In this document: piece by piece, positions 20,003 to 60,900 of the stretch
Layout: every line of letters starts with the position of its first letter
Numbering within the stretch: the stretch's first letter is position 1
Assembly: GCF_000374545.1 (NCBI RefSeq)
Contig: NZ_KB894590.1
Location: 62,001-126,000 of the forward strand
Reading direction: 5' to 3'
DNA: 64,000 nt
From: Anaeromusa acidaminophila DSM 3853
GTDB lineage: Bacteria; Bacillota; Negativicutes; Anaeromusales; Anaeromusaceae
The notes under the pieces: generated by a model
The model's database searches: none
Told to the model about the DNA's origin: nothing
The model's input: only the letters and a program-made list of their open reading frames with translations
Program-made: the position numbers and the translations under genes

Positions 20003-20026
20003 GTAAAAAATGAATAAAAACATTGG

Positions 20027-20112
20027 ATGTAAAAGGCAAACTTGCTGAAAAGCAAGGACGCAAAGCCGTGGGTCTAAGGACGGAATGTCTATGATTGCCA
20101 GGTTGCCGGTTT
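20027..20112 (+). promoter_or_regulatory. Cyclic-di-GMP-I (GEMM-I) riboswitch
   Basis: The conserved core is present in order: AAAAGGCAAAC, a GAAA tetraloop hairpin, GGACGCAAAGCC, GGGTCTA, then GATTGCCAGGTTGCC. GGCAA (20035-20039) pairs with TTGCC (20103-20107) to form P1. A terminator hairpin begins 18 bases later. GCCGGTT (20105-20111) could otherwise pair with AACCGGC (20144-20150) inside that terminator, so ligand binding, which favours P1, should favour termination. A chemoreceptor gene lies downstream. Confidence 0.92.
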
Positions 20113-20291: not shown

Positions 20292-20335
20292 TTGCAAATG
20301 GTACTGACTGGCGAATTTTTCAAAGGAAGGTGAAA

Positions 20336-22417
20336 ATGGTGATGAAGGTAAGGCGGATTTTTCAACCAGGAATTTTTATTATGAGTCGATTCCGCTTAAT
20401 GGCTAAGTTTTTGATGGTGAGCTTAATTTTAGTAGTGTTACTGAGCGTCGCGCTCTTTCAGTTTTTTTCGGGGAATTATGCAAGCAAAGATTTTTCACAA
20501 AAAGAAGTATATGGGGTTGAGTATGCTCAATTATCTCAACGATTAACTAGGCATATTCAAGAGTATTGGTTTTTGCAAAAAGAAGGTGCGGCTAACCTTG
20601 TAGAAGCGGATTTGATCGAGCTGAAAAAGTTAGACCAAACGTATGAACATGTTTTAGATTCTTCTCAAGAAAATAAACAAGTATCAAAGAATATCGAAGA
20701 ATGTGAAGCGTTATGGCATAAAGTCGAAAAAGGAAATACGAATTCATATGAAAATTTGTCAGCGGCGCTTACAACGTTGCATACCAATATCTCTGATAAC
20801 TCCAATTTAACCCTAGATCCGGACTTGGATTCGTATTATTGTATGGATGTAGTGATGTTTCGCAGCCTTGCTATTGCGGAATCTCTATACAAAATTAGAG
20901 AAGTTGTAGCAGCTCAGCCGCCGGAAGGATTATCATACAGTGAGCGGAAAAAACTAATTGCCTTGAGCTCCCAGTTAGCAATTTTGGTTGACACTGTTAA
21001 CACCGATATGCAAACAGGAAGCGAATTTAATGAGGTGAAAGGTCAAAGTATACTGAAAGACATTGGGGTTCCAATAAAAGATTTCACGAAAATCCAAAGC
21101 AAATTTTTAAAGAAGCTTGATGAAGAGCTTGAAAAAGAAAAAGGCTATGTTCAATTGGATTTTCCAGACATTGATCAAGCCATTTCCGCGAATGATCAGT
21201 TGTTTGCCTCCATAGGAGGAGCTTTGTGGAATTTATGTAATGCGCGTGTACTGCAATACGAGCAGCAGGCGAATATAGTCATTATTGCTATTCTTGTTTC
21301 ACTGCCTGTCTTAGCGTATGTATGTATTGCATTAGTTTTATCCATTACTAATGCTGTTTCTATAATTGGAGAGAATCTAGAAAAAATTCAAAATGGAGAT
21401 CTGTCGGTACATATTGAACTGCATTCGCAAGATGAATTGAGTAGTATCTCCAAAGGGATTAATCGAATGCTTGCTCACATGAGAGATATTTTGCAAAGAA
21501 TATCCGCACAGTCAGAAGGGTTGATTATTGCTTCTAAAGAGTTGTCAGTTAGTTCCGAGCAATCAGCATTGTTGGCTGATGATGTAGCAGATGCTACGTC
21601 GCAAGTGTCACGAGGGATAGAAATGCTTTCGGCTTCTACGGAAGAATTAAACGCTTCTGCTGGAAATGTGGAAGCTAATATTGAAAAGATGGCTCTTTTT
21701 TCCGAAGAGGGACGAAGTGTTGCGGAAAATATCAAAGAGCGTGCAGAAACACTAGAGGGAAATGCGCACGCTTCCAGAACAAGGGCAGTTTCGTTATACG
21801 ATGAAATGAATAAAAGTATGCTTCGCTCTATTGATGAGTCCAAAATTGTTGAAGAAATATCCTCTATGGTGGAAGTAATTGCAACTATTTCGAAGCAAAC
21901 TAATTTGTTGGCTCTGAATGCAGCGATTGAAGCGGCGAGAGCTGGAGAAAGCGGCAAAGGATTTGGCGTTGTCGCGGAGGAGGTTCGAAAGCTGGCGGAA
22001 GCGTCTGCGACGGCGGTAGGAGAGATTCAGTCAATGACGCAAGCTGTCCAAAATACGATATCAAAATTGGTGGAAAGCAGCCAAGAGATACTAGGGTTTA
22101 TCAATGGAACCGTAAATGAAGATTATAACTCCTTTGTTAAAGTAGGAGAACAATATAAGGAAGATGCAAAAGCTTTTTTTGATACGACGGAAAATATTAG
22201 CGCTCAATTGCAGCAAGTGTCTCATGAAGTAAAAGAGATATCTCAAGTCATTGAATCGGTCGCTGAAGTGATCTTGGAGAATTCGTCACAAGCGCAAGGG
22301 ATATCGTTGAACACGGCAGGAGTAAGCGAGAAAATGAAGTCGATTCAATCTTCCTCCGTATCGTTGGAACAGATTGCAGGCAAGATGGGAAGTTTGGTGG
22401 TTCAGTTTAAACTGTAA
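20336..22417 (+). CDS. Methyl-accepting chemotaxis protein with large periplasmic sensor
   Basis: Chemoreceptor of 693 aa. TM1 is at about residues 19-42; a helical periplasmic domain of about 270 residues follows with no obvious named fold; TM2 is near 313-340; then HAMP and a cytoplasmic coiled-coil signalling domain with the CheA/CheW-binding tip [22 protein letters not shown] 20336 is chosen with AAGGAAGG just upstream; GTG 20330 and ATG 20342 are alternatives. The transcript begins with a c-di-GMP riboswitch and two terminator hairpins, tying expression of this receptor to the sessile/motile second messenger. Confidence 0.93.
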
Positions 22418-45534: not shown

Positions 45535-47877
45535 ATGAAGCAAAGCGAGAGGATTTATGGAACCCCTCCGGGTATTGGATGTTCCGTTTCCCGGGCGGAC
45601 GCAAAGACGAAGGTGACCGGTCAAGAGGCGTATGCTGCGGACCATTATCCAAAAGGTTGCTTATGGGCCGGAGTAAAGCGTTCTTGCCAAGCCCATGCCC
45701 GTATTGTTTCAGTGGACGTGGAAGCGGCCCTGCAATTGCCTGGCGTGGTGGCGGTATTGACCAGCCGGGATATAGAAGGAAGCAATCGGTTGGGGATTTT
45801 TGAAAAAGATCAGCCGATTTTAGCAGAAGAGGTTGTGCGCTATTACGGAGAGGCGATCGTTTTAGTAGTAGCTGAAACCAAGGATGGATTAGAGCGGGCG
45901 TTGGATGCGATTCGGATTGAATATGAAAAATTGGAAGCGCTTCTAGATTCCAGGCTGGCGTTGTTGCCGGAAAGCCCGGCGATTCACCCTGGACGCGCAG
46001 ACGGCAATGTGCTGCTGCGCGATGAAATTTGCTGCGGTCGTGGTGCAACAGCGCTAGCTGAATGTACATTTACGGTAGAGGTGTCTGTTGAAGTTAACTG
46101 GCAGGATCATGCATTTTTAGAAACTGAAGCGGGAATGGCCAAAGTAGAGGAAGATGGCTCCATTACCCTGGTGGTGGCTACGCAAACTCCTTTTCGAGAT
46201 CGGTTGGAGCTGGGGGAAGCCCTCAAAGTGCCGCCGACAAAGCTGCATATCATGGCGCCGTATCTTGGCGGAGCGTTTGGAGGTAAAGACGGGATTACAG
46301 TACAGGGATTTCTCGTGTTAGCGGCCTTGCATGCCGATGGCCGGCCGGTACGCATGCAATATACGCGAGAAGAGCGCTTTGTGGCCGGTACTAAGAGGCA
46401 TCCGGCGCAGATGACTTATCGCCTGGGGTGTGATTGTGAAGGACAATTGCAAGCTTTAGACTGTGAACTTTTATTTGATACAGGCGCTTACGCCGCTATG
46501 GGCGCGGAAGTATTCGCGTTGGCCATGGAACATGCAGGAGGGCCTTATCGCATTCCTAATGCATGTATTTCCGGTGCTGTTGTTTATACTAATAATCCTC
46601 TTGCCAGCGCTTTTCGCGGCTTTGGCGTACCCCAAGCGGCAGCCGGCGTTGAACAGGCGATGGATGAGCTAGCAAAATGCGCAGGCTATGATCCGCTGGA
46701 GTTTCGGTTGCGAAACGCAGTACAGCGGGGCGGTATAACTCCTGCAGGCGTACGGCTTTCCCAAAGCGTCGGCTTAACAGAATGCTTAAAGAAGCTGGCG
46801 GCGCATCCGTTGTGGACGCAACGCCAAGTATGGCGTGAAGAGGCCCCTGCTTTCAAGCGAAGGGGCGTGGGCATAGCCGCCTGTTATCATGCGGTAGGAT
46901 TTGGACCGATTATTCCGGACTATGCTAATGCTAAACTGGAAATGAAAGCAGATGGCCGTCTGTGCGTCTATGCCGGGGTCGCAGACATGGGGCAGGGCAA
47001 CGTTTCAACGTATTTGCAAATCGCGGGGCATTTGCTGTCTCAAGATATGGAAGAGATGGAATTGGTGCTGCCGGATACGTCTCAAACGCTGCCGTCTTGC
47101 TCTTCGTCAGCCAGCAGGACGACTTTTACCTATGGCAAGGCGTTGGAAGGAGCGGCTGGAATCTTGAAGGAACGCCTCTTGGCGCGGGCCGTGATGCTGT
47201 TTACCTTTCAATTTTTGGAACAAGTGCATATAGATGACTTATTACTTTGTCCGGGAAGGATTGTTCATCAACCGTCGGGGCGGGAAGTGCCGCTGACTTT
47301 GCTGGCTGGCTTTATGGATCCCAGTGAGCGAATGGTTACCTATAGCTATACCTGCCCGGTCAATAAGCAAGTGCCGGAGAGCGGGAAAAAGCTGCGCAAG
47401 CATGGGTTTCCTCATCGTGTTTTCGCTTACGGAGCGCAATTGGTCCGCTTAGAAGCGGACACGTTGAGCGGTGAAGTGAAGGTTTGCGATTTTTTGAACT
47501 GCATTGATGCGGGCAATGTGCTTAATCCGCAGGTTTTTGAACAGCAGATTCAAGGCGGAGCGGCCCAAGGCATCGGCTACGCCTTGTTTGAGGATTTTGT
47601 CTTACAGGACGGGGAAGTGAGGACACGCGATTTTTCAACGTATATTCTCCCTACGGCCTTGGACCTTCCGGCAATGGAAACAGTAACCGCCAGCCTTTAT
47701 GAAGACGACGGCCCTTTTGGCATGAAGGGAGCGGGGGAAATTAGCATTGACGGCGTACTGCCGGCGGTTGCCAACGGCCTTGCTTCAATCACCGGAAATC
47801 GTCTTGCCCAAGGGACGCTTACAGGGGAAAAAGTGCTGGCCGCCTTGCGGCAAGCTGGTTTGGAGGCGGTACGATGA
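45535..47877 (+). CDS. Molybdenum hydroxylase large subunit (xanthine dehydrogenase family)
   Basis: Molybdopterin-binding catalytic subunit of 780 aa. The fold-defining motifs are GGAFGGKDG (about 245), ASAFRGFGVPQ (about 360), GVADMGQGN near 485 and GMKGAGEISIDG near 729, whose Glu is the catalytic base of the family. The enzyme hydroxylates a purine or other heteroaromatic; the substrate is not readable. It is the first gene of a packed run: the 2Fe-2S subunit overlaps it by four bases. AGGAG precedes ATG 45535. It needs molybdenum cofactor, made elsewhere. Confidence 0.93.
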   Translation: MKQSERIYGTPPGIGCSVSRADAKTKVTGQEAYAADHYPKGCLWAGVKRSCQAHARIVSVDVEAALQLPGVVAVLTSRDIEGSNRLGIFEKDQPILAEEVVRYYGEAIVLVVAETKDGLERALDAIRIEYEKLEALLDSRLALLPESPAIHPGRADGNVLLRDEICCGRGATALAECTFTVEVSVEVNWQDHAFLETEAGMAKVEEDGSITLVVATQTPFRDRLELGEALKVPPTKLHIMAPYLGGAFGGKDGITVQGFLVLAALHADGRPVRMQYTREERFVAGTKRHPAQMTYRLGCDCEGQLQALDCELLFDTGAYAAMGAEVFALAMEHAGGPYRIPNACISGAVVYTNNPLASAFRGFGVPQAAAGVEQAMDELAKCAGYDPLEFRLRNAVQRGGITPAGVRLSQSVGLTECLKKLAAHPLWTQRQVWREEAPAFKRRGVGIAACYHAVGFGPIIPDYANAKLEMKADGRLCVYAGVADMGQGNVSTYLQIAGHLLSQDMEEMELVLPDTSQTLPSCSSSASRTTFTYGKALEGAAGILKERLLARAVMLFTFQFLEQVHIDDLLLCPGRIVHQPSGREVPLTLLAGFMDPSERMVTYSYTCPVNKQVPESGKKLRKHGFPHRVFAYGAQLVRLEADTLSGEVKVCDFLNCIDAGNVLNPQVFEQQIQGGAAQGIGYALFEDFVLQDGEVRTRDFSTYILPTALDLPAMETVTASLYEDDGPFGMKGAGEISIDGVLPAVANGLASITGNRLAQGTLTGEKVLAALRQAGLEAVR

Positions 47878-48347
47878 ATGTGTCTTTTGTATTGAACGGT
47901 AAACAAGTAAGCATTGATACGCCGCCGGATCGCAGGGTAGTTGATTTACTGCGGGAAGATTTTGGCTTGATAGGAACGAAAGAATGCTGCGGCGAAGGAG
48001 AATGCGGCGCTTGTACGATTTTAGTGAATCGCTCCAGCCGCTTATCTTGCCTGATGGCGGCGGCGCAGCTAGAGGGTGCGGACATAGTAACCATCGAAGG
48101 CGTAGCGACGGAAGAAAATTTGTCTGTTGTCCAACAGGCTTTTATTGACTGCGGCGCTGTGCAGTGCGGCTTTTGCACACCCGGGATGGTGTTGGCAGTA
48201 CTCGATCTGTTGTATCGCAACCCGCTGCCATCGGAAGCGGAGGTGCGAGAGGGGATTAGCGGCAATTTATGCCGTTGCACTGGTTACCAAAAAATCGTGG
48301 AGGCGGCTTTAATGGCAGCGGCCAAACTGCAGGGGAGGACAAGCTAA
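47874..48347 (+). CDS. Molybdenum hydroxylase 2Fe-2S subunit
   Basis: A 157-aa electron-transfer subunit with two 2Fe-2S clusters. The plant-ferredoxin-like cluster is CCGEGECGAC plus a later Cys near residue 60, and the helical domain cluster is CGFCTPGM and CRCTGYQKI. It begins inside the stop of the large subunit (ATGA) and its TAA overlaps the next ATG by one base, so all three subunits are translationally coupled. Confidence 0.96.
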   Translation: MNVSFVLNGKQVSIDTPPDRRVVDLLREDFGLIGTKECCGEGECGACTILVNRSSRLSCLMAAAQLEGADIVTIEGVATEENLSVVQQAFIDCGAVQCGFCTPGMVLAVLDLLYRNPLPSEAEVREGISGNLCRCTGYQKIVEAALMAAAKLQGRTS

Positions 48348-49174
48348 TGGAGATCCTATTTCCTCGCACTGTTGCAGAAATGCAGGAGCTATTGGCGGTG
48401 CAGCCAACTGGTCGTGTCATTGCCGGCGGCACTGATTTTTGGGTGCGGCAGCGCAGGCTGCCTGCGCCTCCTGTCTTGTTTTCCGCGGAACGTTTGGAGG
48501 AATTGCAGCAGGTTGAAGTACGCAAACATGGTCTTTTCATTGGCGCTGGAGTTACCTATCAGCAGTTGCTGGATCTGCCGAAGCTGGAAGAATGCTTTCC
48601 GGCGTTGCGGCAGGCAATCGCGGTTGTGGGGTCGCCTCCCATACGTCACAGCGCTACCTTAGTCGGCAATGTCTGTACAGCTTCGCCTGCAGGCGATACA
48701 TTGCCGCCGCTATACGTGTTGGAAGCCTCTGTGGAGGTGGCAGGAGAAAAAGGGCGGCGAAGTTTGCCCATTGAGGAGTTTATTGAAGGCCCGGGGCGGA
48801 TTGGGCTGGCGGCCGGCGAGTTTGTGACAGGCGTGCAAATTCCTTGGGCTGAGGAGCAAGTAAGTTCTGCTTATTTTAAAGTGGGCCGCCGCAAGGCCTT
48901 GGCTATTTCAATTGCCAGTTTAGCGGCGCAATGGAAACTGCAAGCAGATAAAACCATAGCCTGCATGAAGCTGGCTTGGGGCAGCGTAGGCCCCACGGTG
49001 GTGCGCCTGCCTCAGGTAGAGGCATTTTTGCAGGGGAAGCCGTTGAACGACGAAGTGTTGCGTCGTGCAGGAGAACTGGTGAAAGACGGGGTAACGCCGA
49101 TTGACGATATTCGCGCTAGCGCGGCGTACCGACGGCAACTGGCAGGTAATTTGCTTCTGCGTCTCAGTAATTAA
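48347..49174 (+). CDS. Molybdenum hydroxylase FAD-binding subunit
   Basis: A 275-aa flavin subunit passing electrons to NAD or another acceptor. FAD motifs are VIAGGTDFWV near residue 25 and IRHSATLVGNVCTASPAGD near 99; a C-terminal CO-dehydrogenase-flavoprotein-type domain follows. ATG 48347 overlaps the previous stop (TAATG), with GGGGAGGA upstream. Only 31 bp separate it from the STAS gene and no terminator is seen, so transcription probably continues. Confidence 0.93.
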   Translation: MEILFPRTVAEMQELLAVQPTGRVIAGGTDFWVRQRRLPAPPVLFSAERLEELQQVEVRKHGLFIGAGVTYQQLLDLPKLEECFPALRQAIAVVGSPPIRHSATLVGNVCTASPAGDTLPPLYVLEASVEVAGEKGRRSLPIEEFIEGPGRIGLAAGEFVTGVQIPWAEEQVSSAYFKVGRRKALAISIASLAAQWKLQADKTIACMKLAWGSVGPTVVRLPQVEAFLQGKPLNDEVLRRAGELVKDGVTPIDDIRASAAYRRQLAGNLLLRLSN

Positions 49175-49205
49175 AAGTTTGTGCAGTAAAGAAAGGGGTT
49201 ATCCT

Positions 49206-49538
49206 ATGGAAATTTCAGTACGAAATGAAGCGACATGTACAGTGATTGCCGTAACAGGACGTCTTGATACAAGAACCGCGCCGGAGTGGGAAAAGCAGTG
49301 CGGCGATATTATTCAAAACGGAGGGACTAAGTTTGTTTTGGATTTGACGTCATTGGAGTACGTCAGCAGCGCCGGGCTGCGCTGCGTTTTGGCGATCGCC
49401 AAGAAACTAAAGGCGTCAGGGGGAGCGTTGGCTCTTTGCGGTTTGTCGGGCTTGGTGCAGGAGGTATTTTCCGTATCCGGCTTTGACAGTTTTTTCCCAG
49501 TGTACGAAACAGCGGAAGAAGCGGTTGCGAATTTTTGA
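49206..49538 (+). CDS. STAS domain anti-sigma-factor antagonist
   Basis: A 110-aa SpoIIAA/RsbV-type protein. It has VTGRLDTRTAPEWEK near residue 20 and the phosphorylation region LEYVSSAGLRCV near 53, with the target Ser in SSAG. In partner switching the unphosphorylated form captures the kinase-type ATPase encoded next; the PP2C phosphatase encoded two genes later would restore it. AAAGGGG precedes the ATG. No sigma factor gene is in the run, so the output may be another protein. Confidence 0.94.
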   Translation: MEISVRNEATCTVIAVTGRLDTRTAPEWEKQCGDIIQNGGTKFVLDLTSLEYVSSAGLRCVLAIAKKLKASGGALALCGLSGLVQEVFSVSGFDSFFPVYETAEEAVANF

Positions 49539-49560
49539 GAATAGCATAGGAGGTAGTGCT

Positions 49561-49977
49561 ATGTCATCGACTACAGCGAGTCGCATTTTTGCGGCGCAAG
49601 ATGAAAATGTACCGGCTATTACTGCCTTTATTACCGAACAGGCGGAACAGGCGGGAGTAAGTCCGAAACGGATTTTGCAATTAGAACTGGTCATTGAAGA
49701 AGTGGTCGTGAATATCTGCCATTATGCCTATGAAGTGCCGCCAGGAGAAGTGGTGATTCGCACCTATTGCGAAGAGGATAAATTTGGCATTGAATTTGAA
49801 GACAGCGGTATTCCTTTCGACCCTCTGGCGGCAGCGGAACCGGATTTGAAAGCAGGCTTAAATGAGCGGGAAGCCGGAGGGCTTGGTATTTTTCTCGTGC
49901 GGCGTATGACCGATGAAGTGCATTACCGCCGAATTGGTGGACAAAATATTTTGGCGGTAGCTGTTTCACGCTTATGA
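49561..49977 (+). CDS. SpoIIAB/RsbW-like serine kinase/anti-sigma ATPase
   Basis: A 138-aa GHKL ATPase. The N-box is ELVIEEVVVNICHYAYE with Glu and Asn, G1 is FEDSGIPFDP, and the nucleotide lid is GGLGIFLVRR, so ATP binding and kinase activity are expected. AGGAGG precedes ATG 49561. It ends in ATGA shared with the binding-protein gene. It presumably phosphorylates the STAS partner directly upstream. Confidence 0.94.
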   Translation: MSSTTASRIFAAQDENVPAITAFITEQAEQAGVSPKRILQLELVIEEVVVNICHYAYEVPPGEVVIRTYCEEDKFGIEFEDSGIPFDPLAAAEPDLKAGLNEREAGGLGIFLVRRMTDEVHYRRIGGQNILAVAVSRL

Positions 49978-50987
49978 AAAAAAGGCTGTATGTAATTTTC
50001 GGGGTTGCGCTTCTGGGACTTTGCCTGCTCTTTTGGCAGAAGCCGGGAGTGGCGGAGGAACAAGAACGTGAAGGCAAGAAGCCTTTTACCTTGATTCTGC
50101 AATGGGTGCCGCAAGCGCAGTTTGCCGGATACTATGTGGCCTTGGAGAAGGGGCTGTACAGAGAAAAGGGCCTAGACGTCCGCATTATCAGGGGCGGAGC
50201 GGATCGAAGCGGCGTGGACTATGTACAACGAGGCGAAGCGGACTTTGCGGTGCTGTTTCTGTCAGGCGCCTTAGCGGCGCGTGATCAAGGCGTGCCGCTA
50301 GTGAATGTGGCGCAAGTTGTCAATCAATCCAATTTAATGCTTATTGGCTGGAAGGATCAGGGGATCGAAAGCGTGCAGCAATTGCATGGCAAAAAGATCA
50401 GTCTTTGGGGCGGCGTGTTTCAGGCTGATTTTCAAAGTTTTTTTGCCGCGAGAGGACTTCAGCCGCAGTTTTTGCCGCAGTACTACTCGGTGAACTTGTT
50501 TATTAACAGAGGTGTTGCAGCTTGCTCGGCTATGCATTACAACGAATACCATGTTTTGTATCAAGCAGGCATTGATGCTCAGCAATTGAGTACGTTTTTT
50601 ATGAAAGACTACGGCTGCGGGTTTCCGGAAGATGGCTTGTATTGCTTGGAGAGTACCTGGAAAGAGCATCCCCAAGAAAGTCGGGCGTTTGCAGAAGCTT
50701 CTCTGGCTGGCTGGCAGTATGCGGCCGAGCATGAAGAAGAAGCTCTAGACATAGTGATGAAGCATGTCCAAGAGGCCAATTTGCCAACGAATCGCGCACA
50801 TATGCGCTGGATGCTGAAAACCATTTTGGCGACCATTATTCCAGAGGGCAATTCTTCCTGGAAGTTGGGCGTACTGGCTAAGGCGGATTATCGGCGAACA
50901 GTAGAGGCGCTGCAATGGCATGGCTTGCTCCGCACCAATCCTTCTTATGAAAATTTTTACCGGGGGATAGGCAATGATGTTCAATAA
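49974..50987 (+). CDS. NMT1/THI5-like periplasmic solute-binding protein
   Basis: A 337-aa binding protein with an N-terminal signal or anchor helix (about residues 5-20). The NMT1/THI5 pattern is LQWVPQAQFAGYYVALEKGLY, then EADFAVLFLSGALAARDQG. Relatives bind thiamin pyrimidine precursors, riboflavin, sulfonates or nitrate. No transporter genes follow; instead it overlaps the sensor phosphatase gene by 14 bases. It may therefore present a ligand to that sensor rather than feed a transporter; this is inference. Confidence 0.9.
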   Translation: MKKRLYVIFGVALLGLCLLFWQKPGVAEEQEREGKKPFTLILQWVPQAQFAGYYVALEKGLYREKGLDVRIIRGGADRSGVDYVQRGEADFAVLFLSGALAARDQGVPLVNVAQVVNQSNLMLIGWKDQGIESVQQLHGKKISLWGGVFQADFQSFFAARGLQPQFLPQYYSVNLFINRGVAACSAMHYNEYHVLYQAGIDAQQLSTFFMKDYGCGFPEDGLYCLESTWKEHPQESRAFAEASLAGWQYAAEHEEEALDIVMKHVQEANLPTNRAHMRWMLKTILATIIPEGNSSWKLGVLAKADYRRTVEALQWHGLLRTNPSYENFYRGIGNDVQ

Positions 50988-52902
50988 ATGGAGCCTTACA
51001 TGGCGGCTGACAGTTCTCATTATGGCGGGAGTCGGCACCATTCTGACAGCGGTGATTGGCTATAGCTATTTTTCAGCCAAACAATTGCTGGAAGAAGAGA
51101 TGATGAAAGAGGCTCAGCATGTAGCGGCAGCGGTCACTTCACGAATCGAAGTTTCTTCAAGGCGCGTGGAAGGCATGGCGCAGGGACTGGCGGCAGTAAT
51201 GGAAGTTATGCCGGTTTCTACGGAGCAGTCCTATCAGTTGATGGAAAAGTTTTTGCAAGGCCAAGAGGATGTGTTTGGTACGGCGGTTGCTTTACGGGCA
51301 ACTAAAAGCCATCCGGTCGGCATCGGAACTTATCTGTATCGCACCTATGGGGGCTTGCAGAAGATTTCGTTAGGATCGGTGCAAGCTTATGAAACAAAGG
51401 ACTGGTATTTACTTCCCGTAGAGATGAAAAGCGCTGTTTGGAGCGAACCCTATTTTGACGAGGGCATTAGCAATGTGTTAATGGCGACCTATTCGGCGCC
51501 TGTTTTTTCTGCGTCTGAGCCAGGTGTCGTGCGGGGGATTGTAACAGGGGATATGTCCCTGAGTATTCTTTCGGAGCTTTTGGAGTCCTTGGAGTTAGGT
51601 CGAGAAAATTACGCTTTTATTATTTCCGGACAAGGGCGGTTTATTGCGCACCCCACTAGCGGCTATGTCATGCGGGAGTCTATTTTCAGCGTGGCTGAGG
51701 ACTTGCAAGACGTCGGGCTGCGCGAATTGGGGCAAAAAATGATTCAAGGACAAAAAGGCTATGTTTCTCATACCAGCAAAGTAAATGGTAAAACCGGCTG
51801 GGTGATGTATATGCCGATCCCTTCTACCGGCTGGTCTTTGGGTATCTTTTTTTCGCGTGATGAGCTTATGGCGCGTGTCTTTGATTTGAGTCGCACCCAA
51901 TGGTATTTAGGGATTGGCGGCTTTTTGCTGCTTTGTCTTGTGGTACTTGGTATCGCCCGTTCCATTACTAGGCCGTTGCGCCAACTCGAGCAGGCTACGC
52001 AAAAGCTGGCGGCAGGAAATTTTGAGGCGACGATTCCGGCTATTTCCGGGCGGGATGAAGTGGCGCGCTTGGCGGAAGCTTTCATGATTATGATCAGCGA
52101 ACTGAAAATTTACATGGAAATGATGCAGGCCACTGTGGCGGCAAAAGAACGCATTGCCAGCGAATTGCGTATCGCCAGCTCCATTCAAATGGGGCTGGTG
52201 CCGAAAGAATTTCCTCCTTTCCCGGAGCGTAGAGAATTTGATCTTTTTGCATTGCTGGAGCCGGCCAGGGAAGTGGGGGGAGATTTTTACGATTTCTTCT
52301 TCCAGGATGAGGAGACGGAAACCTTATATTTAGTGATTGGCGACGTATCGGATAAAGGGATGGGCGCGGCTTTGTTTATGGCCATTGCCAGAACCCTTCT
52401 GCGCTCGTTGGTGCGCGAAAAACGCGAGCCAGGAGAGCTGCTGGAGCGCCTGAACGATGAATTATCCCGCAACAATGAATCCTGCATGTTTGTCACCTTG
52501 TTTTGTGCGGCAGTCCACTTGCCAAGCGGCGCCTGCCGCTACGCCAGCGGCGGCCATTGTCCGCCCATGCTGCTTAAACCAACAGGACAACTAGTGTTTC
52601 TGAATCAAGCTAAGGGACCGGTTATCGGCGGCATGGAAGGGATGCTCTATACGGAAGGAAACTGTTTGTTGGAGACCGGGGATATGCTGCTCTTATATAC
52701 AGACGGCGTAACCGAGGCAGCTACTAAGGAGGATGAGCTTTTTGGGGAGGCGCGCTTAGAAACGGCGTTTTGCACTCGCCCTAAGGCCGCTCCTGATGTA
52801 TTGCTGCGCGAGATAAGAGTGGAGCTGAATGACTTTGCCGCAGGGGCGGAGCAGTCGGATGATATTACTATGCTGGCGTTTCGCTATTGGGGATTGAAAT
52901 AA
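50974..52902 (+). CDS. Membrane sensor phosphatase: Cache-HAMP-PP2C (SpoIIE/RsbU type)
   Basis: A 642-aa transmembrane phosphatase. TM1 (about residues 10-30), a periplasmic double-Cache sensor (about 35-300), TM2 (about 307-330), HAMP (to about 380), a short coiled coil, then SpoIIE-type PP2C with REVGGDFYDFF and VIGDVSDKGMGAALFMA metal-site motifs and a final AEQSDDITMLAFRY. It would dephosphorylate the STAS protein on sensing a periplasmic signal. Its start lies within the end of the binding-protein gene. Confidence 0.95.
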   Translation: MMFNKWSLTWRLTVLIMAGVGTILTAVIGYSYFSAKQLLEEEMMKEAQHVAAAVTSRIEVSSRRVEGMAQGLAAVMEVMPVSTEQSYQLMEKFLQGQEDVFGTAVALRATKSHPVGIGTYLYRTYGGLQKISLGSVQAYETKDWYLLPVEMKSAVWSEPYFDEGISNVLMATYSAPVFSASEPGVVRGIVTGDMSLSILSELLESLELGRENYAFIISGQGRFIAHPTSGYVMRESIFSVAEDLQDVGLRELGQKMIQGQKGYVSHTSKVNGKTGWVMYMPIPSTGWSLGIFFSRDELMARVFDLSRTQWYLGIGGFLLLCLVVLGIARSITRPLRQLEQATQKLAAGNFEATIPAISGRDEVARLAEAFMIMISELKIYMEMMQATVAAKERIASELRIASSIQMGLVPKEFPPFPERREFDLFALLEPAREVGGDFYDFFFQDEETETLYLVIGDVSDKGMGAALFMAIARTLLRSLVREKREPGELLERLNDELSRNNESCMFVTLFCAAVHLPSGACRYASGGHCPPMLLKPTGQLVFLNQAKGPVIGGMEGMLYTEGNCLLETGDMLLLYTDGVTEAATKEDELFGEARLETAFCTRPKAAPDVLLREIRVELNDFAAGAEQSDDITMLAFRYWGLK

Positions 52903-52945
52903 CAGGCGGCGTAATTTGGGCGGCCTGGTGAAAAGGGGAGCCGTT

Positions 52946-54241
52946 ATGAAGCAAAAACAGTCTGTAGAGCTGCAGATACCATTGCATGAGGAGATGCTGC
53001 CGGTCATCGTATGTTGTGCGGAGAACACCGCGCAAGCCTTTGGGTTTGGCAAAGAAGAGCAATTGAGTCTTTCCTTGGCGACGGAAGAGCTATTCGCTTT
53101 TCTCAGCGGCCAGCGGGAAGACGCCGGAGAGATGCAATTTATTTGCCGTCATGGCGGTTATTACTTGGAAGCGTCCTGCCTGTTTCCAAGGCGAGCGCTG
53201 CCGACCAAGGTATTTAACCGGACCGCTAGTATGTCGCTGGATGATGAGGCGTCGTTAGCGGAAATGGGCTTGCTATTGGCAGCTCGTACGGTAGATCATT
53301 TTTGTCTGGAAATGCTATCTGATAATCGCATGGGTTTGCAGCTGCGTCTTGAAAAACGATATCCCCAGGCCATTCCAGAGGAATTTGAAGCGCTTCCTTC
53401 CTTGGGGTTTGTTTTGGCTGAGCCGGAACGGGAAGCTTTGAAGCAGCTTGCCAGAAGGGTGCTGGCGGTTTATGGAGACAGTGCTCCGGAATTTTTTCAC
53501 TACCCCGGTAAGCTTGTGGACATGCTTGGCAGCGGTGAATATGGAGCCGTATTGATGCAAGACGGCAAGGGGCAAGTGGGCGGTGCTTTTCTTTGGCAGT
53601 GCGGCGGTAAAATGGCGGAAGGCTTTGGGCCGTATGTATTTTCCGAACAAGGCGGTATGGCCGTCGCTTTGGTAGAAGGGGCTCTTGCCAAACTGGCTCG
53701 TTCCGGTATTGTGTGCATGACCATGCGGCAGCCGACAGCACAGGCGCCTGCCGGCTATTTTGAGCCGTTGGGAGAAGTAGACTTGACGTCAGTTGGCGGT
53801 GTTACGCAGCGGCATACGGCGTTATATCGACAATTAGAAGAAGACAACGGCATGAGTGTCTTTGCCAATCCGGCAATTGAGGCGTTTTTGCGCCGGCAGT
53901 ATGAGCTTTTGGCATTGCCGCGCAAGCTGCAGCCGGCGATCTACGAAGGGGAAGAGCAATTGGCGGATTCTATTTTGTCTACTCGTTTAGACCGACGCAA
54001 GCTGACTGCTTTTCTGGCGGTATTGGCGCCTGGCGAAGACATGCAAGAAAATTTGGCTATGCATGTGACGGCTTTGCGAAAAGAGAACATCAAGAACATA
54101 TTTTTTGAGCTGGATTTAGGCAAAGCGGCCGAGGTAGAGGCGGCGCCAGCCATTTTAGCTGCCGGTTTTACGCCGCAGTTTGTGTTGCCATGGGGCGGAC
54201 AAGGCGATCTGCTCCTTTTGACGCTGCCGGAGGAGGCTTGA
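52946..54241 (+). CDS. Degenerate RsbW-like ATPase domain joined to GNAT-like region
   Basis: A 431-aa protein. Residues 1-135 follow the GHKL anti-sigma kinase layout (LSLSLATEELFAFLSG at the N-box; EMGLLLAARTVDHF then LQLRLEKRYP at the end), but the N-box Asn, the Asp-x-Gly of G1 and the glycine lid are lost, so ATP use is doubtful. Residues 150-300 and 310-431 have acetyltransferase-like features. It may be a pseudokinase scaffold in the partner-switching run. AAAAGGGGAG precedes ATG 52946. No named family was recognised for the whole. Confidence 0.75.
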   Translation: MKQKQSVELQIPLHEEMLPVIVCCAENTAQAFGFGKEEQLSLSLATEELFAFLSGQREDAGEMQFICRHGGYYLEASCLFPRRALPTKVFNRTASMSLDDEASLAEMGLLLAARTVDHFCLEMLSDNRMGLQLRLEKRYPQAIPEEFEALPSLGFVLAEPEREALKQLARRVLAVYGDSAPEFFHYPGKLVDMLGSGEYGAVLMQDGKGQVGGAFLWQCGGKMAEGFGPYVFSEQGGMAVALVEGALAKLARSGIVCMTMRQPTAQAPAGYFEPLGEVDLTSVGGVTQRHTALYRQLEEDNGMSVFANPAIEAFLRRQYELLALPRKLQPAIYEGEEQLADSILSTRLDRRKLTAFLAVLAPGEDMQENLAMHVTALRKENIKNIFFELDLGKAAEVEAAPAILAAGFTPQFVLPWGGQGDLLLLTLPEEA

Positions 54242-54243
54242 GT

Positions 54244-55356
54244 ATGCAGGGACAAACCGTCAGATGGGAAAACCTGGTTCCTGCGCATATTCGGTCTATT
54301 CAGGCCTATATTCCCAGCAAGCCCGATGATGTGCTGCGGGATATGTTTCATTGCCCGCCAATTCACCGATTGAACAACAACGAAAACGCCTTGGGGCCTG
54401 CCAAGGAGGCGCAGGCGGCTATTGCTGCCTTTGATCCGGCGGCGGCGGCTATTTATCCCAGCGGTGATGCATTTCATCTGCGTCAGCGCTTGGCGCAGAA
54501 CTTTGGCCTGGATGCGGACTGTTTCCTGGTGGGAAATGGCGCTAACGAAGTAATTGCGTTTGTGATTAATGCCTTTTGTCAGGCCGGTGATAATATCATT
54601 ACTGCGGATAAAACCTTTGCCGTCTATGAATGGGTAGCGGAGTTTTCAGGCTATCAGGCCAAGCAAGTGCCTTTGTGCGAGGAGGCCTTCGATGCGCAAA
54701 GCATGCTCAAGGCCATTGACGAGCGAACGAAAATTTTATTTGTGTGCAATCCGAATAATCCTACCGGTACGTACTGGCCGGAGAAAAAACTTCGGGCTTT
54801 TTTGGATGCCGTAGGGGGACGGCAGATAGTTGTCCTGGATGAAGCCTATGCGGAGTTTGTGGAGCAGGAGGACTTTCCTGACGGTATGAAACTGCTTCAT
54901 GAATATCCGAATTTGGTGGTTTTTCGTACTTTTTCTAAAATGTACGGGCTAGCGGGGTTGCGTATTGGTTACTTGGCAGGCTCGCCGGAAGTAGTGAATG
55001 TGATTCGCCGCACCTGTGTAGTATATTCGGTGAACGCTCTGGCTCAGGTTGCGGCCTTGGCTACGCTGGATAATCAGGGAGACCATGTAGCGAATACCAG
55101 GTCGTTGGTGCGTGAAGCGAAGGCTTTTTTGCATTGCGAGCTTACGGCAATGGGCCTGCATCATCTGGCTGGTGAGGGCAATTATATGATGATCCGCCTG
55201 CCGCTTAGTGATACCTTGGCTTACCGTAAATTGATGCAGCATGGTTTTATGGTACGAACGATGACAGGCTTTCGTTATCCCAACCATATCCGGCTTACGC
55301 TGAGTACGCTGCCAGTCATGGAAGGATTTATTAAGGCATTAAAGGCCATTTTATGA
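54244..55356 (+). CDS. HisC-like PLP aminotransferase
   Basis: A 370-aa fold-type I aminotransferase of the histidinol-phosphate group. It shows LNNNENALGPAKEA, the PLP pocket NGANEVI, CNPNNPTGTYW, DEAYAEF, the Schiff-base lysine in RTFSKMYGLAGLRIGY, and a C-terminal Arg in PNHIRLTLST. GGAGGAGG precedes ATG 54244, two bases after the previous stop. No other his gene is nearby, so it may act on another amino acid such as an aromatic one; a housekeeping hisC role is not supported by context. Confidence 0.9.
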   Translation: MQGQTVRWENLVPAHIRSIQAYIPSKPDDVLRDMFHCPPIHRLNNNENALGPAKEAQAAIAAFDPAAAAIYPSGDAFHLRQRLAQNFGLDADCFLVGNGANEVIAFVINAFCQAGDNIITADKTFAVYEWVAEFSGYQAKQVPLCEEAFDAQSMLKAIDERTKILFVCNPNNPTGTYWPEKKLRAFLDAVGGRQIVVLDEAYAEFVEQEDFPDGMKLLHEYPNLVVFRTFSKMYGLAGLRIGYLAGSPEVVNVIRRTCVVYSVNALAQVAALATLDNQGDHVANTRSLVREAKAFLHCELTAMGLHHLAGEGNYMMIRLPLSDTLAYRKLMQHGFMVRTMTGFRYPNHIRLTLSTLPVMEGFIKALKAIL

Positions 55357-55370
55357 AAACATGGTGAAAC

Positions 55371-56741
55371 ATGAAGAGGATAAAGATTTTTTCTAAAGTG
55401 CAGGAGAAGGCGGATTTAGCTTCGCCGGAAGTTGGGCGGACGTTGGTGCAGCTGGCTTTGCCGCTAATGATTTCGCTGTTGTTTCAAAATCTCTATGCTT
55501 TTGTAGATACGGTTTTCGTATCTTGGCTGGGGGATGTGCCTTTAGCGGCTGTTTCCATGGTTGTTCCCTTGATGTATGTTTCTTTGTCCATGGCCAAGGG
55601 AATTTCAATGGGGAGCATCATGCTTATGAGTCATGCCCGAGGCGGCGGCGCGGAAGAACAGGCGGTTCGCATCGCGCGCGGCATTCTGCCGCTGATGGCT
55701 TTGAGCATGTGCGTTTTTCTGCCCTTGTTGGCTCCGACGGTCAATACTGCTTTTTTTAGCGCCATAGGAGCGAATGAAGCCCTCTGGCCGATGATTCATG
55801 CCTTTATCATTTGGCTGATTCCCGGGTTCTTCGTTATGGGCTATGTGATGACAGCGGAAGCGTTCTTTATGGCTCGCGGCGATACATTGACGCCGATGAA
55901 AGCGATGGCCCTTGGCAATATAGTTAATATGGGGCTGGATCCGATCTTGATTTTTTCCTGCAATCTGGGCGTAGCCGGAGCGTCGTTAGCTACGCTTTTT
56001 GGACAAATTGTGGCAGGCGTTTACTTGTATCGGGCGCTGCGGCATTACGACTATGAATTGCCGCAGCTATGCTGGGCTGCCGGTATGCTAGGCGAATGGA
56101 AGCGGATTTTAGGACAGGGTGTTTATATTGCCATGTCCTATATAATTATTCCGGTAGGCCTATTTTTGCTTAATGCAGTGCTGGCGCAGTTTGGCCCTGC
56201 GGCGCTGGCCGCCTGGAATATGATGTCACGTTTGGAAATGCTGGTCATGCTGCCGATCATGGGACTGGGGAACGCGATGGCTACGATGATCAGCTTTAAT
56301 CTTGGGCGAAGAGAATATGAACGAGTGCGTGGCTGTGTGCGTTCTTTTTTTAAGATTTCCTTGGCTGTAGCCATGCCGGTTATGCTGTTATTTGTGCTGT
56401 TGCCGGAGACGGTGCTGGCTTTGTTTCAACCGACGCCGGAACTTCTCAGGCTAGGCTCCTATGCGCTAAGAGCGTCCGGCGTGGCTGGCGTATTTATGAC
56501 GGTAGTTTTCGCTTTGCTGGGCGTAGCGCAGGGGTTGAAGCGTCCGGTGTATATGATGGCGGTGTCAGCTACGCATGCCTTGGGCGTCCGCGTGCCCATG
56601 GCTTATTTTCTCGCTGCTTTTTGGGGCGAAACCGGCGTGTTTTGGAGTCACACGGCGGCTGCGTTTACGGCGGCAATTCTGGCGGGTTTTTTAATTGCCA
56701 AGCTGCTTAGCAGTATAGAGCGGTTGCCTAAGGAGGTATAG
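55371..56741 (+). CDS. MATE family efflux transporter
   Basis: A 456-aa twelve-helix exporter of normal length, unlike the tailed relative at 35989. The first half has LVQLALPLMISLLFQNLYAF and the conserved DTVFVSWLGD; the second half repeats the pattern. It is coupled to H+ or Na+. The gene lies 14 bp after the aminotransferase and 1 bp before the nucleosidase gene, so it belongs to the same transcript and may export a compound made by its neighbours. Ribosome site is weak, suggesting coupling. Confidence 0.93.
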   Translation: MKRIKIFSKVQEKADLASPEVGRTLVQLALPLMISLLFQNLYAFVDTVFVSWLGDVPLAAVSMVVPLMYVSLSMAKGISMGSIMLMSHARGGGAEEQAVRIARGILPLMALSMCVFLPLLAPTVNTAFFSAIGANEALWPMIHAFIIWLIPGFFVMGYVMTAEAFFMARGDTLTPMKAMALGNIVNMGLDPILIFSCNLGVAGASLATLFGQIVAGVYLYRALRHYDYELPQLCWAAGMLGEWKRILGQGVYIAMSYIIIPVGLFLLNAVLAQFGPAALAAWNMMSRLEMLVMLPIMGLGNAMATMISFNLGRREYERVRGCVRSFFKISLAVAMPVMLLFVLLPETVLALFQPTPELLRLGSYALRASGVAGVFMTVVFALLGVAQGLKRPVYMMAVSATHALGVRVPMAYFLAAFWGETGVFWSHTAAAFTAAILAGFLIAKLLSSIERLPKEV

Positions 56742-56742
56742 A

Positions 56743-57540
56743 ATGTATTTGGGAAAAGTCATTGCTTTAGTGTTAGGTTTGTGGCTGACGGCGGCCGCAC
56801 CTGCTTGGGCCCAAGAATCTTGCGTATTAATTCAAGGGGCTATGGATATGGAGGTTCGCACCTTAGTAGAACAACTGGAGGAGCCGCAAACCGTAGTGCT
56901 TGCCGGCTGGACCTATTGGCAGGGACATATTGGCTCTCAAAAGGTAGTGGTTTCGCAAACTAAGGTGGGGACTACCAATGCCGCAGCGGCGACATTGCTG
57001 GGGATTCAGCGGTTTTCCCCTACGGTGATTGTCAATCAGGGGACGGCTGGAGGCTATCCGGCTTGGCTGCATAAGGGGGATTTGATTATTGGAGAAACCA
57101 TTACCAATGCGGGAGCCGTTAATGTGGCCAGACGGGAGGCTGGACAGGGGATTGAAGTGCGCGAATGGACGGTGCGCGATGAATTTGGTCCGGTTCGCTG
57201 GCAAAGCGATGCTCGCTTGGTACGCTTGGCAGAGGTTTTAAGCAAAGATTATACCCAAGGGCGGGTACATAAAGGAACAATTTTTTCCAGTGACCGCTGG
57301 TCGCGGGAGCTGGATTATATAGCGTATTGGCAAAAGAAAGAAAATGCCTTGGGGGAAGAAATGGAAGCCGCGGCTAGTGCGCAGATTGCGGCGGCGTATC
57401 AAATCCCATATCTTTGCGTGCGGGTTGTTTCCAACAATGAAGCTGCCCGGGAGCCCTGGGAGCCGGTGGAAGCCGAGCGCTTAGCGAGCGGCTGCCAAGA
57501 GTACATTTTTAAATTGGTGGCAGCTTTGCAAAATCGCTGA
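56743..57540 (+). CDS. Exported nucleosidase/phosphorylase superfamily protein (MTA/SAH nucleosidase-like)
   Basis: A 265-aa PNP/UDP-fold protein with an N-terminal signal peptide (residues 1-23, AAPAWA). The body has VLIQGAMDMEVRTL, SQTKVGTTNAAAATLLGI, NQGTAGGYP and the catalytic-type EEMEAAASAQIAAAYQIP, where MTA/SAH nucleosidases have MEGAA followed by an acid later (RVVSNNEAA here instead of SD). Substrate release of a purine base in the periplasm is plausible but the altered acid leaves the activity open. AAGGAGG precedes the start. An imperfect hairpin overlaps the stop. Confidence 0.82.
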   Translation: MYLGKVIALVLGLWLTAAAPAWAQESCVLIQGAMDMEVRTLVEQLEEPQTVVLAGWTYWQGHIGSQKVVVSQTKVGTTNAAAATLLGIQRFSPTVIVNQGTAGGYPAWLHKGDLIIGETITNAGAVNVARREAGQGIEVREWTVRDEFGPVRWQSDARLVRLAEVLSKDYTQGRVHKGTIFSSDRWSRELDYIAYWQKKENALGEEMEAAASAQIAAAYQIPYLCVRVVSNNEAAREPWEPVEAERLASGCQEYIFKLVAALQNR

Positions 57541-58351: not shown

Positions 58352-58924
58352 ATGCGGCTCTTTGTTGCGATAGAACTTCCTGAAATGGTGCGGACAGCTC
58401 TTGGAAACGTGCAGCAGCAGGTGCGCAAGCAAACGATTAAGGGACGATTTTTTACCGAAAGCAATATGCATTTGACGCTGTGTTTTTTAGGCGAGACGAA
58501 GCCGGAACGGGTCCAGGAACTAATGCTGTTTTTGCAAGAAGCAGCCGCGTTAGGGAAGGCGTTTCCTTTGCATTTTGCTAGACAACTGCGCTACTTTGGA
58601 ACGGAAAAACCGGCCAGAGTAGTTTGGGTTAGCTTACATGGGGAGCTGAAGCCGCTGCGAAAACTGCAACTTCTTGTTGCAAGAGCCGTAGAAAAGGCTG
58701 GCCTGCCCTTGGAAGAGCGTCCATATGTTCCACATATTACGTTGGCCCGTAATTGCGTATTTTCGGCCGAGGTGCTGTTGACGCAAGGGAAGATTCAACT
58801 TTCGATGCCAAGACCGCCCGAATTTGAAGTGTCAGGTTTTTCGCTAATGATAAGTGAACAGGTAGATGGAAAAAGGAGTTACCGAGCGCTGGACCGCTTT
58901 GTATTTCCTAAAGAATGTAAATGA
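58352..58924 (+). CDS. thpR: RNA 2',3'-cyclic phosphodiesterase (2H family, ThpR/LigT)
   Basis: A 190-aa 2H phosphoesterase. The two catalytic His-x-Thr motifs are HLTLCFLG near residue 42 and HITLAR near 127, both intact. Family members open 2',3'-cyclic phosphates or join 2'-5' RNA ends; the in vivo role is unclear. AAAGGAGAG precedes ATG 58352. It probably shares a transcript with sir2 and ends at a strong terminator. Confidence 0.93.
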   Translation: MRLFVAIELPEMVRTALGNVQQQVRKQTIKGRFFTESNMHLTLCFLGETKPERVQELMLFLQEAAALGKAFPLHFARQLRYFGTEKPARVVWVSLHGELKPLRKLQLLVARAVEKAGLPLEERPYVPHITLARNCVFSAEVLLTQGKIQLSMPRPPEFEVSGFSLMISEQVDGKRSYRALDRFVFPKECK

Positions 58925-58968
58925 AAACGAAGGCAAACCGGTAGAGAAACCGGCTTGCCTTCGTTTTA
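58923..58968. terminator. Bidirectional terminator between thpR and PAS-GGDEF gene
   Basis: AAAACGAAGGCAA(A)CCGGT pairs with ACCGG(C)TTGCCTTCGTTTT with an AGAGAA loop. It overlaps the end of the minus-strand gene. Confidence 0.88.
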
Positions 58969-60465
58969 CTTCTTCTGCTCTTCCTGCGTCTTGGGAGGGG
59001 CGAAACAGATATGCGTTTCCGGATCTGCTTTGGCAGCGTACATGGCCGAGTCGGCGCTCTGGATGATTTCATCGACGGCATTGCCGTTTTCAGGATAGGT
59101 GGCGATGCCAACGCTAGCGGATACTTGCAGCTGATGCCCTGCAAAGGAGCAAGGCTGTTCGATTAGCTGCAGCAGTGATTCCGCTAGTCCGGCTAGGCTG
59201 TCGCGGTCCTTAATTTCCGGCAATAAAACAACAAATTCATCGCCTCCTTGGCGGCAGACCGTATCAGATTTGCGGATGGCCTTTCGGAGTCGTTGGGCAA
59301 TGGCGCAAAGCAAGGCGTCTCCAGCATCATGACCATAGTTGTCATTGATCGGTTTGAAACGATCTAAGTCGATGAAAATGATACCTAATTGTCGATGATA
59401 ACGTCTGGCCAGAATTAAAGCCTGCGCTGCTTTTTCCAAAAACAGCACCCGATTTGGTAAGTTCGTGAGATAATCATGATGCGCTAAGTAGCGGATTCGT
59501 TCTTCCGCTTGGTGACGTTCCGTAATGTCGAGGAACATGCTGACATAATAAACAATCTCATTGTTTCTATCTAAAACTTGAGCGATGGATAGCATTTGAG
59601 GGTAAACTTCGCCATTTTTACGGCGGCTGACTACTTCACCTTCCCAATGGCCCTGTTGGTGGATAATTTTAAGCATATCGCGGTAAAAAGCGCTGTTTTG
59701 CTGACCCAGAAGGAGCATCATCTTTTTTTCACCAAGGACTTCGGCTAAAGTGTAACCGGAGATACGGATATAGGCGTTATTGGCGGAGACAATACGGTGT
59801 TGTGCGTCTGTTACCACGATGGCCACCGGGCTGGTGTCGAAAACCGTGTGAGCCAGGCGTAAAGAAGCTTCTTCACGGCGACGTTCGGTAATGTCTTCGA
59901 CAACGATTACTACGCCGCTGGCTTTTCCTTCCTGATCTAAAAAAGCGCGGCTGGCTGCGCGATACCAGATTGTGGTTCCGTTGGGAAGTTGATGGCTACG
60001 TTCGGCGAAGACCGGTTGATAAGGGTGACGCAAAGCTTGCTCGAAATTTCGTTTGCTTTCTTCGCGCATGTTTGGGGCTAAGTAGAGGCAATAATCGGTG
60101 CCCAGCACTTCGGCAGGGGATCTTTGAAATAGATCAGCGACGCATTGGTTGGCATAGAGAATATTGCGCTGCGAGTCCAGTAATAAGAGGGAGAGTCCGG
60201 AACTGTCATAAATGGCGCGTAACAGAGATTCCTGGCAAGAAAGTTTTTCATTGGCCCTGTGGGCTTCGGCGAGGGCTTGGGTTAAGCGTCGATGCTCTCG
60301 CAGCAGAAAGAAACTAAGTAAGGTTAAAAGCAAAGCAAGCAAAATGCCTGTAAAGAGCAGCCAGTCGTCATTACAAAGATAAACAAAAGTTAAGGTGAAA
60401 AGGAAAACGAAAAAAAGAGCAAGGAAAAGAGAGTTGCGTTTAAACGGTATGGAAAAATAGCGCAT
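58966..60465 (-). CDS. Membrane diguanylate cyclase: two PAS domains + GGDEF
   Basis: A 499-aa protein with two N-terminal membrane helices (about residues 10-55), a short coiled coil, PAS1 (about 80-200), PAS2 (about 205-325), both closed by DITER motifs, and GGDEF. The active loop is RQGGDEFVVLLP, the metal site IFIDLDRFKPINDNYGH, and an inhibitory RKSD lies five residues upstream, so it should be active and feedback-limited. ATG 60465 has AAAGGAG 7 bases upstream; ATG 60471 is too close. Confidence 0.94.
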   Translation of the reverse strand: MRYFSIPFKRNSLFLALFFVFLFTLTFVYLCNDDWLLFTGILLALLLTLLSFFLLREHRRLTQALAEAHRANEKLSCQESLLRAIYDSSGLSLLLLDSQRNILYANQCVADLFQRSPAEVLGTDYCLYLAPNMREESKRNFEQALRHPYQPVFAERSHQLPNGTTIWYRAASRAFLDQEGKASGVVIVVEDITERRREEASLRLAHTVFDTSPVAIVVTDAQHRIVSANNAYIRISGYTLAEVLGEKKMMLLLGQQNSAFYRDMLKIIHQQGHWEGEVVSRRKNGEVYPQMLSIAQVLDRNNEIVYYVSMFLDITERHQAEERIRYLAHHDYLTNLPNRVLFLEKAAQALILARRYHRQLGIIFIDLDRFKPINDNYGHDAGDALLCAIAQRLRKAIRKSDTVCRQGGDEFVVLLPEIKDRDSLAGLAESLLQLIEQPCSFAGHQLQVSASVGIATYPENGNAVDEIIQSADSAMYAAKADPETHICFAPPKTQEEQKK

Positions 60466-60587
60466 AGACATACTCCTTTCCGGCGGCAATAACGATGAGT
60501 TTATACTATATGTTCCGGATTTATCGAGAAAAACCTTCTAGCGTATAAAATGAGATGGATCTTTGTAAAAATAATTCGATCTAGAAG

Positions 60588-60616: not shown

Positions 60617-60637
60617 ATGAATCAATATGATAAACCT

Positions 60638-60900
60638 ATGAGCAAGAAGAGTAAGAATCATTGGTTGTACTCAGAGAGTCGCTAGCTGGTGAGAATGCGA
60701 TTGCAAAGATGATTCCGAATGGACTTGCGAGGGAGGCCCGAAATCGAAAGAGAGTAGGCGTCTACGGGGGCCCTGCCCGTTAGCAGCTGGGTGCATATGT
60801 TAGTATGCAAAACGAGAGGACGATTTATCGTCAATTTGGGTGGTACCGCAGAAGCTTAGAGCTTTTGTCCCTTTTTAGGGGACAAAGGCTCTTTTATTTT
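60638..60900 (+). promoter_or_regulatory. T-box riboswitch, tryptophan specifier
   Basis: Stem I has the AGTA side of the specifier loop (near 60650), the distal CAGAGAG and GGTGAGAA elements, and the 3' specifier side GAATGGAC, placing codon UGG (60720-60722) for tRNA-Trp. The T-box sequence TGGGTGGTACCGC is at 60839-60850, where uncharged tRNA would pair through GGT/ACC bulge contacts. The competing terminator is AGAGCTTTTGTCCC paired with GGGACAAAGGCTCT (60858-60894) and T-rich tail. Uncharged tRNA-Trp should turn on trpBA. Confidence 0.95.

Follow-up and report, generated by a model that had tools for sequence, protein, structure and literature searches.

A putative ligand-gated partner switch in a biosynthesis-type operon of Anaeromusa acidaminophila, and its recurrence beside a conserved gene pair in Firmicutes

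Partner switching is known chiefly from the control of sigma factors, as in the RsbU-RsbV-RsbW system of the general stress response of Bacillus subtilis, and in the SiaABCD system of Pseudomonas aeruginosa the switch acts on a diguanylate cyclase. Here we describe a locus in a 64,000-nucleotide stretch of the genome of Anaeromusa acidaminophila DSM 3853 (contig NZ_KB894590.1, positions 62,001 to 126,000 of the forward strand; hereafter the window), in which a STAS protein, an RsbW-like kinase (KIN), an NMT1-type binding protein, and a PP2C sensor phosphatase stand in one row with metabolic genes, one of which encodes a protein that we call G5. The locus shares with RsbU/V/W the phospho-serine STAS protein, the RsbW-like kinase, the PP2C phosphatase, and the reaction logic. 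It differs in having no linked sigma factor, in its extracytoplasmic Cache sensor and binding protein, in the placement of the switch genes within a metabolic operon, and in the presence of a kinase-fold protein, G5, that combines a pseudokinase domain with a GNAT-like part. With SiaABCD it shares a membrane-bound HAMP/PP2C sensor and a small operon, and a sigma-independent enzyme output is also the model that we favour; however, the conserved unit here contains no diguanylate cyclase, and the candidate for the output is G5. We hold with moderate confidence that an eleven-gene operon encodes both a biosynthesis-type pathway and a ligand-gated partner switch dedicated to it, the likely target of STAS being G5. 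A conserved locus of this kind, where a switch with exchangeable sensors repeatedly accompanies a single gene pair, would clearly exemplify partner switching in the service of metabolism; G5 is a concrete candidate for the link between switch and enzyme. A literature search returned no description of the G5-HisC locus or of a SpoIIE sensor coupled to a binding protein, which does not prove that none exists.

Full-length relatives of G5 were found in 14 of 381 Negativicutes genomes (that of the window included), in three of 399 genomes drawn evenly across the phylum beyond the window's own, and in six of 113 genomes from a second class, one of them shared with the phylum draw. All G5 loci counted, 22 with mapped neighbourhoods, come from two classes of Firmicutes and a further group. 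A gene for a HisC-like aminotransferase directly adjoins G5 in every one of them, and the subunits of a molybdenum hydroxylase together with a MATE exporter lie near this pair in most loci, a number of the 22 being truncated by contig ends. A PP2C partner-switching module is present within about 10 kb of the G5-HisC pair in 13 of the 22 loci and in nine of 13 genera. The five SpoIIE genes in the window's genome (3.48 Mb) set a chance baseline of about 3% per locus; the occurrence of the module in eight of 12 genera (final count, nine of 13) has a p of about 2e-10, which becomes about 1e-6 if the SpoIIE density is tripled, and the counting of genera controls for relatedness only partly. The conservation of the neighbourhood is far above chance. 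An earlier note on this DNA had proposed that the switch is linked to metabolic and export genes, and the neighbourhood search bears this out: co-occurrence in relatives goes beyond STAS, kinase, and PP2C, and the linkage to G5-HisC recurs. Judged by gene order, the conserved unit consists of the G5-HisC pair, the molybdenum hydroxylase, and the MATE exporter, and the switch is a variable attachment to it.

The attachment varies both in position and in sensor. In the window and in genome G003, the row STAS-KIN-NMT1-SpoIIE is placed between G5 and the subunit of the hydroxylase that binds flavin adenine dinucleotide (FAD); in G315 it immediately precedes G5, and in G316 and G317 it comes after HisC. 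G297 has a 5TM-LYT-SpoIIE protein with a STAS protein, a PF04392 binding protein, and a separate STAS-KIN pair, and G750, G787, G825, and G838 have 5TM-LYT-SpoIIE with STAS. In these four the phosphatase is fused to a HATPase domain, according to Pfam in G838 and to a reading of the sequence in G750, and probably, to judge from protein length, in G787 and G825. In G795 there are a KIN and a dCache-HAMP-SpoIIE protein but no NMT1. The G5-HisC tree shows the sensor types scattered, the LYT-bearing Negativicutes falling between two NMT1 clades. In all, at least three sensor versions accompany the same core gene pair.

In the window, the switch begins with the STAS protein (49206..49538, + strand; Pfam STAS), whose phospho-acceptor motif is EYVSSAGLR; SSAGLR with the phospho-acceptor serine is kept in all 12 aligned STAS proteins. 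KIN follows (49561..49977, +; Pfam HATPase_c_2) with intact N, G1, and G2 boxes, and in the alignment E46, E47, N51, D81, and G106-G109 are invariant in 10 of 10 sequences and G83 is kept in 9 of 10. The dCache-HAMP-SpoIIE phosphatase (50974..52902, +; Pfam dCache_1, HAMP, and SpoIIE) has two transmembrane segments flanking its Cache domain, and its metal-binding motifs are intact, the PP2C motifs GGD-YD, GDV--KG, and SDDITM being conserved in the alignment. By sequence, these three proteins form a complete RsbU/V/W-type partner-switching set, as the earlier note had said. Identity with SiaABCD was rejected, the phosphatase scoring 76.2 bits against a cut-off of 700 for the SiaA model (NCBIfam NF038263). 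In PctA, an amino-acid-sensing dCache protein, R126 marks the arginine position (PMC10104139). An amino-acid ligand for the dCache domain is less likely here because the corresponding position, in an alignment read by eye, is occupied by K, S, Q, or T.

G5 (52946..54241, +) has no match in Pfam or NCBIfam and belongs to no named family, and its profile finds no match among solved structures. In profile comparisons, HATPase-GNAT proteins match G5 over its full length (hhalign 99.6%) and KIN matches its N-terminus (95.3%); taken singly, 11 of the 22 members reach HATPase_c_2 at E-values up to 0.1. The ATP-binding asparagine (N51 of KIN) is replaced in all 22, by F in 12, Y in nine, and H in one; the G1 aspartate is gone and GGLG is altered, and both glutamates are kept in 22 of 22. 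On the strength of this loss of the ATP site, the N-terminal domain is classed by sequence as a pseudokinase. The description of this protein as a degenerate kinase joined to a GNAT-like part stands as far as profile comparison goes, the GNAT-like part showing a weak match (54.6%) to stand-alone GNAT-like proteins. The HATPase-GNAT fusions of about 500 aa, which lie beside RimK-GH3 ligases, match G5 over its full length but score as normal HATPase_c_2, whereas G5 lacks the ATP-site residues throughout. These fusions adjoin an 855-aa protein at L052:7638-11703 and L053:7932-12079; the one in L052 is a fusion of RimK ATP-grasp and GH3, which suggests a further amide-ligase locus under regulation.

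The chief rival to an enzyme output keeps the same dedicated module and gives it a transcriptional output, with KIN as an anti-sigma factor that holds a sigma factor encoded elsewhere, which in turn transcribes the operon. Such an arrangement would follow the canonical RsbU/V/W logic, KIN is weakly similar to the RsbW and SpoIIAB models, and three genomes (G308, G309, and G312) in which the module is unlinked to the presumed pathway suit a transcriptional output. On the other hand, no sigma factor was seen among the neighbouring genes scanned at these loci, in agreement with the earlier note, and KIN falls far under the equivalog cut-offs (37.5 vs 145 bits for RsbW; 29.4 vs 135 bits for SpoIIAB). 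The sigma-factor output also leaves unexplained why a pseudokinase domain of the same fold is found in the adjoining G5. We think it less likely than the model favoured here. With its pseudokinase domain, G5 lends plausibility to an enzyme as the output of the switch, but an unlinked sigma factor may yet be what KIN holds.

The binding protein (49974..50987, +; Pfam NMT1) has an export signal, with one N-terminal hydrophobic segment in the topology analysis. It shares the fold and family of the ThiY/THI5 pyrimidine-binding proteins, its solved relatives including 3ix1 and 4nmy; unlike them, it is linked to a phosphatase, with no transporter genes nearby and, according to Rfam, no thiamine pyrophosphate riboswitch in the window. 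A role as a thiamine-precursor importer was rejected for want of linked permease and ATPase genes. As the earlier note had observed, the binding protein gene overlaps that of the sensor phosphatase (by 14 bp), and no ATP-binding cassette (ABC) permease or ATPase gene is present among the neighbours scanned. Strong orthologues (about 50% identity or more) occur in eight of 381 Negativicutes genomes, all of them among the 14 having G5 (hypergeometric, 3e-13 by genome); by genus, the four NMT1 genera all lie inside the six G5 genera of 102 (3.5e-6). Wherever the sensor-type NMT1 is found, it stands between KIN and SpoIIE, and in G308, G309, and G312, in which the module is absent from the G5 locus, the same STAS-KIN-NMT1-SpoIIE module is present elsewhere in the genome.

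One could still suppose that NMT1 belongs to an ABC importer built from genes elsewhere, its position in the operon being incidental to signalling. The solved relatives of the NMT1/THI5 family do include transport binding proteins, but a distant homologue (33% identity) has genes for two permeases and an ATPase next to it, whereas no such genes accompany NMT1 here, and the sensor-type protein keeps its place between KIN and SpoIIE and is restricted to G5 genomes. In other Negativicutes, moreover, the NMT1 domain is fused directly to GGDEF-EAL outputs (L080:6202-8742 and L082:6382-8826), from which it appears that NMT1 is used as a sensor elsewhere in this class. An importer role is therefore the less likely one, and we consider it distinctly improbable. 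The binding protein is nevertheless dispensable, being replaced or absent in other versions and deleted in two sister species. In these (G001 and G002), SpoIIE follows KIN after a few tens of bases and NMT1 is gone; the alignment displays the first codons of NMT1 fused to its last bases with the SpoIIE start kept, that is, a clean deletion, whose short remnants lie between KIN and SpoIIE at L042:6690-6830 and L043:7570-7680. Since the phosphatase is kept without it, NMT1 may modulate the phosphatase rather than being essential. It should be mentioned that the order of the window's genome comprises four genomes of one genus in our collection, and that a contig scan for relatives found one, SAAJ01000041.1 (from a Negativicutes metagenome-assembled genome), apparently the same contig as G001.

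The metabolic genes begin upstream of the switch with a molybdenum hydroxylase: an XdhA-like molybdopterin-binding subunit (45535..47877, +), whose nearest solved enzyme is nicotinate dehydrogenase and which is kept by G5-HisC in most relatives, a 2Fe-2S subunit (47874..48347, +; XdhC/PucE-like), and an FAD subunit (48344..49174, +), whose start is placed by the FAD_binding_5 match and an ATGA overlap. The enzyme belongs to the xanthine dehydrogenase superfamily. It has the three-subunit Mo/FeS/FAD make-up of nicotinate dehydrogenase and other molybdenum hydroxylases, some relatives also encoding XdhC-type and MocA-type maturation factors (in our set, the loci of the second group); unlike the known enzymes, the one here stays under every curated equivalog cut-off for known substrates. 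The best score is that of XdhA/PucD (540.6 vs 783.65), by which xanthine dehydrogenase proper was rejected. Downstream of G5 come the invariant HisC-like aminotransferase (54238..55356, +; Pfam Aminotran_1_2), predicted to depend on pyridoxal phosphate, and the MATE exporter (55371..56741, +; Pfam MatE). The HisC-like protein passes TIGR01141 (286 vs 276.55 bits); a histidine operon is nonetheless unlikely: no his genes lie beside it, and a second above-cut-off HisC, at C9:20088, scores higher.

At many G5 loci there are further genes, for FabH-like proteins, for an acyl-CoA ligase, and for GNAT-like proteins about 340 aa long; the G315 locus has a non-ribosomal peptide synthetase (NRPS) and a phosphopantetheinyl transferase. 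Because of the acyl-CoA ligase, FabH-like, GNAT-like, and NRPS genes in relatives, the G5-HisC locus looks like a biosynthesis-type locus with a small-molecule product, and it marks an uncharacterised small-molecule pathway in the Negativicutes and related Firmicutes. The pathway might instead serve the catabolism or detoxification of an N-heteroaromatic compound by hydroxylation, transamination, and MATE efflux, the substrate then being what the switch senses. The closeness to nicotinate dehydrogenase and the frequent role of MATE pumps in efflux speak for such a route, but the ligase, FabH-like, GNAT-like, NRPS, and phosphopantetheinyl transferase genes suit synthesis, and we think catabolism improbable. 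The window's genome also encodes a GNAT-AMP-ligase fusion (on C19) and a FabH-GNAT pair (on C1), both unlinked to the operon. At G068:C100:24062-28723, a GNAT-like gene occurs twice in tandem, with an in-frame TAG in one copy, and XdhA is split nearby; a duplication or an assembly fault may be the cause.

In the mechanism that we infer for the biosynthesis-type operon, the NMT1 protein would bind a small molecule outside the cytoplasm (perhaps an N-heterocycle, perhaps the pathway's own exported product) and in its loaded form would act on the dCache domain of the phosphatase. The PP2C domain would then take the phosphate off STAS, and unphosphorylated STAS would alternate between KIN and another target, for which G5 is the most likely candidate. 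With its fold and two glutamates kept and its ATP site lost, the RsbW-like domain of G5 could dock STAS without phosphorylating it and so gate the acyltransferase-like part and the pathway, whose product, possibly the ligand, would be exported by the MATE pump. More tentatively, we suggest a wider possibility: a sigma-independent switch in which STAS docks on a pseudokinase domain inside a metabolic acyltransferase-like protein. A ligand outside the cytoplasm, which might be the exported product, would thereby gate biosynthesis directly, through sensor phosphatases that are interchangeable across the Firmicutes.

In favour of this mechanism, the divergence of the module and that of G5 and HisC are correlated with r = 0.99, a value that vertical descent alone could also produce. 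Other observations weigh against it. At six Negativicutes G5 loci the module is not adjacent, an orthologous one being present in trans for three of these, and no module was seen at G395, at G512, or on the cut contig of G840. In G5 itself no acyl-CoA motif can be recognised and none of the named families fits, making GNAT activity uncertain, and an AlphaFold model from two near-identical sequences reached a pLDDT (predicted local distance difference test) of 37. Finally, the contacts of STAS with G5 and of the binding protein with the phosphatase are inferred, as are the ligand, the direction of signalling, and the product.

As for the extent of the operon, the earlier note had described eight packed genes starting at STAS. 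All eight open reading frames (ORFs) lie on the + strand in the order and with the spacing described, no gap exceeding 43 bp and stop and start codons overlapping at several junctions: 22 bp separate STAS from KIN, KIN and NMT1 overlap by 4 bp, 43 bp separate SpoIIE from G5 (ATG at 52946), and G5 and the HisC-like gene overlap by 4 bp. The start has to be moved, the three hydroxylase genes (45535-49174) having been missed. These run in the same direction, overlap one another, end 31 bp 5' of STAS, and are among the most conserved neighbours, travelling with G5-HisC in distant relatives; for these reasons, the predicted operon likely comprises eleven genes, 45535-57540. Rfam gives no match upstream of XdhA. 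The last of the eleven encodes a nucleosidase-like phosphorylase of the methylthioadenosine/S-adenosylhomocysteine type (56743..57540, +; Pfam PNP_UDP_1), exported by prediction, with one N-terminal hydrophobic segment; it is adjacent in the window's genus only and is a genus-level addition rather than part of the conserved unit. A Sir2 gene lies 66 bp 3' of it and a strong terminator-like hairpin is found at 58924-58967, so the transcript could extend past the nucleosidase.

Convergent with the operon, an ORF on the - strand (58966-60489) reads as a PAS/GGDEF-type protein; it stays beside the operon in two members of the genus and is not a conserved part of the unit. Elsewhere in the window there are a tmRNA gene at 17858-18202, a c-di-GMP-I riboswitch at 20025-20110 (85 bits) 5' of a large + strand ORF (20330-22417), and a T-box leader at 60629-60875 (116.6 bits) 5' of an ORF at 60900.

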